From Fimbriimonadales bacterium (lineage in GTDB: Bacteria; Armatimonadota; Fimbriimonadia; Fimbriimonadales; GBS-DC), in assembly GCA_025998675.1 (NCBI GenBank), contig AP024673.1, positions 2,612,562 through 2,676,561 on the forward strand: a stretch of 64,000 nucleotides of DNA. The letters are read 5' to 3'. How positions within the stretch are numbered: position 1 is the stretch's first letter; every line of letters begins with the position of its first letter. The translations under genes and the position numbers were made by a program. Shown piece after piece: positions 54,861 through 56,709 of this stretch. Below the pieces are notes generated by a model. It had not been told where the DNA came from. It did not search any database and saw only the letters and a program-made list of their open reading frames with translations.

Positions 54861-55643
54861 CTACTGGCAGTACCGAATGCGGAACGGCGCGTCCATGCCC
54901 CAGGGCGCCCATGGACCGAACGGGTAGTTGTCGCCGTCGGCGCAGCAGGGCGGATAGAACCAGTGGCGCGCCTCGCGCCCATCGCCGCCGCGCAGACTCG
55001 GCTTGAGCCACTTCACATGCCCATCCATCCACAGGATGTTCGTGCCGCCCGCATGCTGGAACCAGATTTCGTTCGGCTGCCCGCAATCGATGTCGGTGTC
55101 CGCTGTTGCGCCCGCGAGATTGCTCGCGTTGCGCCCGCGCACCTCCAGCAAGAACAGCGACTCTGCAGGCTGCTGCCAGGTGGCAATCGCGGGGTAATCC
55201 AGCACATGCTCGCTCAGCGCGTAGCTCATGTGGAACTCGTAGGTGCGGCGGGAGGTCAGCCGCAGCCCCCACTCTGGCAGCGGACGCGTGCGGAAGTTCG
55301 GCTCCATCACAATCGGGTTGCTCGGACAGCTGAAAAAGTTGTCGCGCGCGCCCTGAATGTCGCTTGGTTTCATCTTAATGTAGGGGGTCAGCAGGAACGG
55401 CCACCAGTCCTCCATCCAGTAGCGGTTGGGAATCGAAGGGTCGCTCGGGCGCGTGAAAAACTGCTCGTCATAATCCTGCAGGTACATCTGCTGCGCAATC
55501 CCCAGCTGCTTGAGATTGGACGCGCACACGGTCTGGCGCGCTTTCTCGCGCGCCTGCGCAAACACGGGAAACAGAATCGCCGCCAGAATCGCAATAATCG
55601 CAATCACCACCAGCAGCTCAATCAGTGTGAACCCCTTACGCAT
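54861..55643 (-). CDS. DUF1559-type prepilin-like protein (H-X9-DG)
   Basis: 260 residues. N-terminus [48 protein letters not shown] is a class III prepilin signal, cut after Gly4 by a prepilin peptidase, with Glu at position 5 of the mature form. The C-terminal motif [16 protein letters not shown] is H-X9-DG, characteristic of the large DUF1559 pseudopilin families in Planctomycetes and Armatimonadota. Probably a minor pilin or secretion pseudopilin, assembled by machinery like that at 1-2667. Its promoter region contains one half of the double PhoB-type operator. Confidence 0.92.
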
Positions 55644-55665: not shown

Positions 55666-55671
55666 AGTCTA
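55666..55671 (-). promoter_or_regulatory. Predicted -10 box of prepilin gene (GGTAGACT)
   Basis: Minus-strand TAGACT preceded by GG, 22 nt before the ATG at 55643 and 9 nt after the last TTTAACCT repeat, the usual spacing for a PhoB-activated promoter. Confidence 0.6.
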
Positions 55672-55680
55672 CCTCTGGAG

Positions 55681-55728
55681 AGGTTAAAGTTCCGTTAAGA
55701 AATGTTTTTTTTAACCTGAACTTAACTG
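55681..55728. promoter_or_regulatory. Double divergent PhoB-type operator
   Basis: Plus strand: TTTAACCT (55710-55717), GAA, CTTAACTG (55721-55728). Minus strand: CTTAACGG (55699-55692), AAC, TTTAACCT (55688-55681). Each pair is a direct repeat with 11-nt period and 3-nt spacer, matching the form of Pho boxes known from cyanobacteria (YTTAACCT repeats). The two pairs face outward, towards the prepilin and the lamin-tail genes. Confidence 0.7.
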
Positions 55729-55737
55729 CGCGAATGG

Positions 55738-55743
55738 TACTTT
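55738..55743 (+). promoter_or_regulatory. Predicted -10 box of lamin-tail protein gene (GGTACTTT)
   Basis: TACTTT preceded by GG, 18 nt before the ATG at 55762 and 9 nt after the CTTAACTG repeat. Confidence 0.55.
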
Positions 55744-55761
55744 ACAGGCGGAGGCTATGAA

Positions 55762-56709
55762 ATGAGAGGCTTAGCGACTATTTTTCTGGCGACTGGCATG
55801 GCGCTTGGCGCGACGGCGCAGGTGCGCATCACGGAAGTGTTGGTTAATCCGCCCGGCTCGCCCGACGCGGGGCGCGAGTTCATCGAGATTCAAAGCTGCA
55901 AACCGAACTTCTCTCTGCAGGGCTACTGGCTGATTGGCATCGACGGCGAGTATCTGTTCAACCCCGGCAACATCCACTGGGCAGTGGACTTGAGCGCGTA
56001 CAGCACGGGCGACAACGGGCTGCTGCTGGTGCGCGATGGCAGCAGCGTGCTGCTGCCGGAGCCTGATTCGGCGACGACGGTCGTGGTGATTCCCAACGCC
56101 TTCACCGCCTCGGGGCTTCAGAACGACAGCTACACCGTCGCGCTGGTGCGCAACTTCACGGGGCAGGTGAACGATGACATCGACGCCAACGACGACGGCG
56201 TCATCGACAACCCGCTCTGGGAAGAGGCGATAGGCGCGTTCGGCTGGCTGGACGGCGAGGTTTCGTCGGGCGAGGTGGACGCGGTGTACGCGACCCAGCT
56301 GAACGGAGTCGAGTCGCCTGTTGAGGACCGAACCGTCGCTGGGGACACTTGGGAGCCTGATGTGATTATCTTCTTCCAGAACGGCGCGTTCCTGGTTGCC
56401 GATGCGGGGCGCGTGACGGGCGCGGGCGACTTCGGACCCTTCCGCACCGACAACGACGAAATCGTCGTCTACAACGGCACGCTGCCCAGCCAATTCAATC
56501 GCGAGGTCACACCAGGCAATCTGAATCCGGGCGACCGCCCCGCCGTGGATGGCGATGTGAATTGCGACCGCTGTGTGGATGACGCCGACCTGCTGCAGGT
56601 GCTCTTCAACTTCGGCGGGAACGACGCCAGCTCCGATGTGAACGGCGACGGCGTGGTGGACGACGCCGACCTGTTGATTGTGCTGTTCAACTTCGGCAAC
56701 GGGTGCTAA
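55762..56709 (+). CDS. Secreted lamin-tail-like protein with dockerin-like repeats (3)
   Basis: 315 residues. Signal peptide MRGLATIFLATGMALGATAQ. Residues ~20-240 match a lamin-tail domain: VRITEVLVNPPGSPDAGREFIEIQS, then LQGYWLIGIDGEY, GDNGLLLVRDG. Lamin-tail domains occur in secreted bacterial nucleases, phosphatases and adhesion proteins as binding or anchoring modules, and no enzyme domain is present here. An inner DDIDANDDGVIDNPLWEE stretch may bind calcium. C-terminal GDVNCDRCVDDADLLQVLFNFGG and DVNGDGVVDDADLLIVLFNFGNGC form the dockerin-like tag. Divergent from the prepilin gene and probably under PhoB-like control. Confidence 0.82.
   Translation: MRGLATIFLATGMALGATAQVRITEVLVNPPGSPDAGREFIEIQSCKPNFSLQGYWLIGIDGEYLFNPGNIHWAVDLSAYSTGDNGLLLVRDGSSVLLPEPDSATTVVVIPNAFTASGLQNDSYTVALVRNFTGQVNDDIDANDDGVIDNPLWEEAIGAFGWLDGEVSSGEVDAVYATQLNGVESPVEDRTVAGDTWEPDVIIFFQNGAFLVADAGRVTGAGDFGPFRTDNDEIVVYNGTLPSQFNREVTPGNLNPGDRPAVDGDVNCDRCVDDADLLQVLFNFGGNDASSDVNGDGVVDDADLLIVLFNFGNGC

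Follow-up and report, generated by a model that had tools for sequence, protein, structure and literature searches.

Known systems

PhoB recognizes two 8-bp direct repeats joined by a 3-bp linker and placed 10 bp 5′ of the −10 element (PMC1906773; PMC4415409). The operator described here has in common with the E. coli PhoB box the two 11-nt direct-repeat units, 10 bp 5′ of the −10 (PMC1906773, PMC4415409); it differs in the half-site, which is of the CTGTCAT type in E. coli, and in being doubled back to back. The cyanobacterial regulator SphR (PMC1906773) offers a further likeness, with CTTAACCT 8-bp direct repeats, a 3-bp linker, nearly the same half-site, and pst and phosphatase genes as targets; in Synechocystis, phoA shares an operon with the gene of an extracellular nuclease (PMC1906773). 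Unlike SphR, whose described binding involves at least three repeats, the boxes treated here have two as a rule and three in some relatives, and their targets in the Fimbriimonadales include pseudopilins.

Phosphate limitation couples secreted proteins with pseudopilin-based type II secretion in the Psp/Hxc system of Pseudomonas fluorescens (PMC2225411) and for ElpS of Caulobacter (PMC2996285). Pi induced the cargo of the P. fluorescens system but not hxcR itself (PMC2225411). In contrast to both systems, here the pseudopilin genes are boxed themselves and are scattered singly outside any gsp operon.

DUF1559 pseudopilins have undergone a great expansion in the Armatimonadota and Planctomycetes, and no firmly assigned role for them was found in the literature searched. 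Rhodopirellula baltica has 74 pseudopilins of this family kind (PMC2754498) and Fimbriimonas ginsengisoli 79 (PMC4072686), compared with about 50 here. The literature searched holds no phosphate link for such DUF1559/PulG-like expansions; PhoB/PhoR and numerous pseudopilins both appear in the genome paper of F. ginsengisoli, which draws no link between them (PMC4072686). Our search, which most subscription papers lay outside, found neither DUF1559 pseudopilins in a Pho regulon nor a study of an Armatimonadetes Pho regulon. The kind of operator is already known, namely the Pho box; a Pho-controlled subset of DUF1559 pseudopilins appears to be unreported.

The present locus lies in a 64,000-nt stretch of a Fimbriimonadales (Armatimonadota) genome, called the window below. 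We conclude that the 78 nt at 55666–55743 are very probably a divergent double Pho operator, by which PhoB would co-induce a pseudopilin gene and an LTD (lamin-tail)/dockerin-like gene in phosphate limitation. An earlier sequence-only reading of this operator largely holds, and what it had observed is correct to the base.

Layout of the operator

Two direct-repeat pairs with a 3-nt spacer and an 11-nt period had been claimed, each ending 9 nt before a −10 box. The pairs are exact on both strands, as are the coordinates and distances on both sides (Table 1). Because the four half-site starts are spaced 11, 16 and 11 nt, the two pairs stand head to head. The layout of a Pho box, with direct repeats of 11-nt period some 9–10 nt 5′ of a −10 element and without a −35, is found on each side.

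Table 1. Features of the divergent operator and its flanking genes, in window coordinates
Feature	Position	Strand	Remarks
DUF1559 pseudopilin, 260 aa, N_methyl and SBP_bac_10/DUF1559 start	54861..55643	-	Profile matches
Shine-Dalgarno of the pseudopilin gene, AGGAGAG	55654-55648	-	
−10-like TAGACT, putative pseudopilin promoter	55666..55671	-	9 nt past box, without −35 consensus
Pho box, pseudopilin side, CTTAACGG-AAC-TTTAACCT	55681..55699 (55699-55681)	-	Two half-sites, 11-nt period
10-nt centre between head-to-head boxes	55700..55709	none	Half-site starts 16 nt apart
Pho box, LTD/dockerin-like gene side, TTTAACCT-GAA-CTTAACTG	55710..55728	+	Exact pattern, orthologue conservation
−10-like TACTTT, TGG before it, putative LTD gene promoter	55738..55743	+	9 nt past box, without −35 consensus
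Shine-Dalgarno of the LTD gene, GGAGG	55750-55754	+	
Secreted 315-aa protein: signal-peptide-like start, LTD-like fold, C-terminal dockerin-like duplicated loop	55762..56709	+	

Motif frequency and scoring

The host genome (2.99 Mb, one contig) contains 10 exact sites for YTTAAC-N5-YTTAAC as against 1 for the reversed control pattern. From base composition, about 0.16 exact pairs would be expected in 3 Mb with the two strands counted, and about 2e-9 for divergent double pairs with a single fixed gap; that such geometry is hard to get by chance, as had been asserted, is borne out by these figures. Summed over 18 genomes of family f1, 113 sites were counted against 12 reversed controls. It is hardly credible that the operator consists of AT-rich repeats that arose by chance in a short spacer between genes: its two sites are the only exact matches in the 64 kb and the relaxed pattern (up to two mismatches) is not over-represented there (3 seen, 2.5 expected), but the enrichment in genome and family, the fixed spacing and the conservation at orthologues described below all speak against this explanation, and it was rejected on the conservation.

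Two genomes of family f23, from the same phylum but outside the order, are also strongly enriched in exact sites over reversed controls (21 versus 3 in G101, 16 versus 3 in G108), and there the sites often consist of three tandem half-sites. In the host, two of the 10 exact sites (L004:1501-1517 and L007:1501-1517) are identical boxes in a duplicated stretch by RHS-like genes, from which they face away; lacking a clear target, they are probably not functional.

A weight matrix was trained on 23 phosphate-gene sites only. Applied to the window, it ranks the operator sites first (minus strand, 19.3 bits) and second (plus strand, 15.6 bits), followed by a third at 10.5. The maxima over 30 simulated windows had a mean of 11.5 and a highest value of 17.0, so that the plus-strand score falls inside their range. 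Both operator sites lie below all of the training sites (23–35 bits), mostly because of the spacer. A covariance search built on the same sites reported, at E<=10, four phosphate genes along with a single gene for a secreted protein, and did not report the pilin or the LTD site; this sequence-only covariance model (R1) is too short for ranking weaker sites.

The box at phosphate genes

The sequence-only reading had staked itself on two things, the presence of the repeats at pho genes of the same genome and their conservation upstream of orthologues, and both came out in its favour. Four of the 10 exact host sites lie 5′ of phosphate genes: pstS (then pstC), pstB (TIGR00972 above cut-off), a Porin_O_P-pstSCAB operon, in which the boxed porin gene is succeeded by another pstS and more pst genes, and phoD. 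Ten sister genomes hold about 59 sites, among them pstS eight times, pstB five times, a PhoA-type alkaline phosphatase (PF00245, 219 bits) three times, the porin twice and phoD once. The box also stands 5′ of pstS and pstB in other families of the order. Its position upstream of pst and phosphatase genes in the same genome identifies it as a Pho box.

At pstS, pstB and phoD (L001:1501-1546, L002:1501-1542, L010:1501-1545) the start codon follows the box by about 22–27 nt, a distance that is near-constant across the sister genomes. Since this is about where transcription should begin, these transcripts may be leaderless.

Conservation at orthologues

Alignment of orthologous spacers found a box or near-box at all nine pilin and all ten LTD orthologues, the window included in both counts. 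The nine pilin orthologues, all in the genus, have the box 65–68 nt before the reference point used. Behind the box comes a GGTA −10-like element, with GGTACTCT, GGTATGCT or GGTATTCT at the position of TAGACT; six of the nine have a second half-site relaxed in its last base (TTAAA or TTAAT). All ten aligned LTD-gene spacers retain both plus-strand half-sites, some as TTAAT or TTTAAA, and most have a GGTACTCT-like −10.

The spacing of 11, 16 and 11 nt recurs in five divergent loci, namely the window, L061, L070, L066 and L067, the last with one extra half-site; the most distant divergent locus (L069) has 11-11-15-11. In three genomes (G004, G010 and G011) the pilin and LTD genes lie on different contigs and each is still boxed, while in two others (G006 and G009) no pilin orthologue was found and the remaining LTD gene is still boxed.

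These separated genes bear on how the operator would work. Pho regulators activate or repress (PMC4415409), and the two sites of the operator are unequal in matrix score; PhoB might in principle bind and repress, or the boxes might serve just one of the two genes. We consider this very unlikely, given that each box lies 9 nt, the activator distance, from its own −10 without a −35 consensus, and that each box is kept alone where the pair is split.

The regulator

The host genome (G000) encodes two response regulators with Trans_reg_C above cut-off, and has a weak Trans_reg_C match at the contig end. One regulator is directly followed by its kinase, and the best NCBIfam matches of this adjacent PhoB/PhoR pair are PhoB (TIGR02154, 249.7 bits) for the regulator and PnpS/PhoR for the kinase, neither of which reaches its strict equivalog cut-off. 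The other, at C1:87602, is MtrA/RpaB-like and lies beside a GAF kinase; because of this second OmpR-family regulator, the assignment to PhoB is not exclusive within the host species alone.

The sister genomes narrow the choice. In six of them, all at least 90% complete (G001, G006, G008, G009, G013 and G014), PhoB-PhoR provides the sole normal-size OmpR-family response regulator, and in G001 (96% complete) and G006 (93%) the PhoB orthologue is the single Trans_reg_C match overall. G001 has exact boxes at pilins (L209, L214) and at phosphate genes; G006 retains the LTD-gene box (L062), with CTTAAT as its second half-site. Because some near-complete sisters that have PhoB only still carry boxes at phosphate and pilin genes, PhoB is likely the economical reader of both, and what had been called an OmpR/PhoB-type regulator can be given that name.

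Alternatively, the pilin and LTD boxes could be read by another winged-helix regulator with a near-identical site, either the GAF-kinase OmpR-family protein or a large AfsR/SARP-like one. The second regulator and the weak contig-end match of the host would allow this, and the spacers of pilin boxes are more purine-rich than those of phosphate-gene boxes. We regard it as improbable, since the PhoB-only genomes still have boxes, at pilins in G001 and at the LTD gene in G006, and G008, G013 and G014 have beside PhoB only an AfsR-like protein of about 1,100 aa. A second response regulator as reader of the pilin boxes was judged unlikely on the same PhoB-only genomes.

No box was found at the phoBR operon itself, and autoregulation of phoBR through the same box was rejected.

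Proposed mechanism

With PhoB as the reader, phosphate limitation would be the signal for phosphorylation of PhoB by its kinase PhoR. One PhoB dimer per direct-repeat pair (half-site YTTAAC, period 11 nt) would then bind and substitute for the −35, letting RNA polymerase initiate at the weak −10 boxes to the left and right. The expected outcome is activation, with co-induction of the DUF1559 pseudopilin leftward and the secreted LTD/dockerin-like protein rightward. The two genes would share a Pho regulon with pstS, pstB, porin-pstSCAB and phoD, and with phoA in sister species. As the shared back-to-back switch matches the one before phosphate-uptake genes, the pilin-like and secreted-protein genes are probably switched on together when phosphate is exhausted.

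By analogy with phosphate-regulated exoproteins that use type II secretion, one may guess that the pilin and the LTD protein help to secrete phosphorus-scavenging proteins or to display them at the cell surface.

The boxed pilins

The leftward gene product matches PF07963 (34.3 bits) and PF07596 (39.1 bits), both above cut-off, which identifies it as a DUF1559 pseudopilin; its orthologues are 82–89% identical across the C-terminal 200 aa. About 53 DUF1559-type N-termini were found in the host genome. When 48 pilin upstream regions were scored with the phosphate-gene matrix, six reached at least 12 and eight at least 10, compared with 0 and 0.08% of control segments. Pho control of the entire pilin family was rejected: most of the 48 are without a box, and some unboxed pilins have TTGACA/TATAAT promoters. 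Of the approximately 59 exact sites in the sister genomes, 12 or more belong to pilins, and other families of the order have boxed pilins as well (L112, L113, L114, L116, L117, L121 and L129).

With a conserved Pho box at a defined pilin subset, there is now a growth condition to test, together with a named regulator and a set of surface proteins under the same control. The sites also yield a model of Pho regulon binding that can be used in a phylum with few cultured members.

At a GspE/PilB-type ATPase gene (L261:2240-2330; G000:C1:2388253) a one-mismatch box, CTTAATCGCCCCTTAAC, lies directly 5′ of a TTGACA-TATAAT promoter, and a leader of about 400 nt follows; G008 has a similar arrangement of box and TTGACA (L172). 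The leader matched no Rfam family.

The secreted protein and other boxed targets

The rightward gene product had been described as a secreted, calcium-tagged protein with lamin-tail and dockerin parts. Its profile scores lie under the cut-offs for both LTD (PF00932, 17.1 bits, cut-off 34.3) and Dockerin_1 (14.1 bits, cut-off 22.9), and Pfam gave no nuclease domain in the 315 aa. The predicted model (mean pLDDT 83) shows the duplicated calcium-loop/helix fold of dockerins, with good matches to 2y3n (Z 9.2, 58 residues at rmsd 1.8) and 2ozn (Z 8.0). Moderate matches of the model to several lamin Ig domains (Z 6.0–6.6) and to DUF4876 (7.0) are suggestive, and are within the range of common arrangements. 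Among the proteins that contain LTDs are extracellular nucleases, ExeM being one (PMC6085458).

The dockerin part of the description is upheld by the predicted fold and fails the Pfam cut-off. Cohesin PF00963 had no match in the host genome at E<=0.001; among the control genomes a match was obtained in Methanosarcina. Because of the low profile score and the missing cohesin, the term calcium-tagged is no more than inferred. As no cohesin was found, the dockerin-like tag may serve another purpose, and may be a sorting signal for a shared pilus/secretion machine.

The dockerin-like C-terminal repeat, DVNGDGVVDDADLLxVLFNFGxGC (window 56544-56709), is common to dozens of secreted proteins per genome, and it is possible that this shared repeat is a sorting tag. 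Boxes also recur at genes for secreted 'WDFN' proteins whose C-termini are dockerin-like repeats or PEP-CTERM, and at the gene of a phytase-like protein with a weak match (20.1 bits, under cut-off). With more doubt than confidence, we suggest that DUF1559 pseudopilins are condition-specific parts, and that the Pho-boxed subset joins a shared pilus/secretion machine in phosphate shortage and, with co-induced surface proteins tagged by dockerin-like repeats or PEP-CTERM, captures organic phosphorus.

A protein of about 119 aa, weakly similar to phage endonuclease I, has an exact Pho box in five sisters (L169, L186, L201, L215 and L216).
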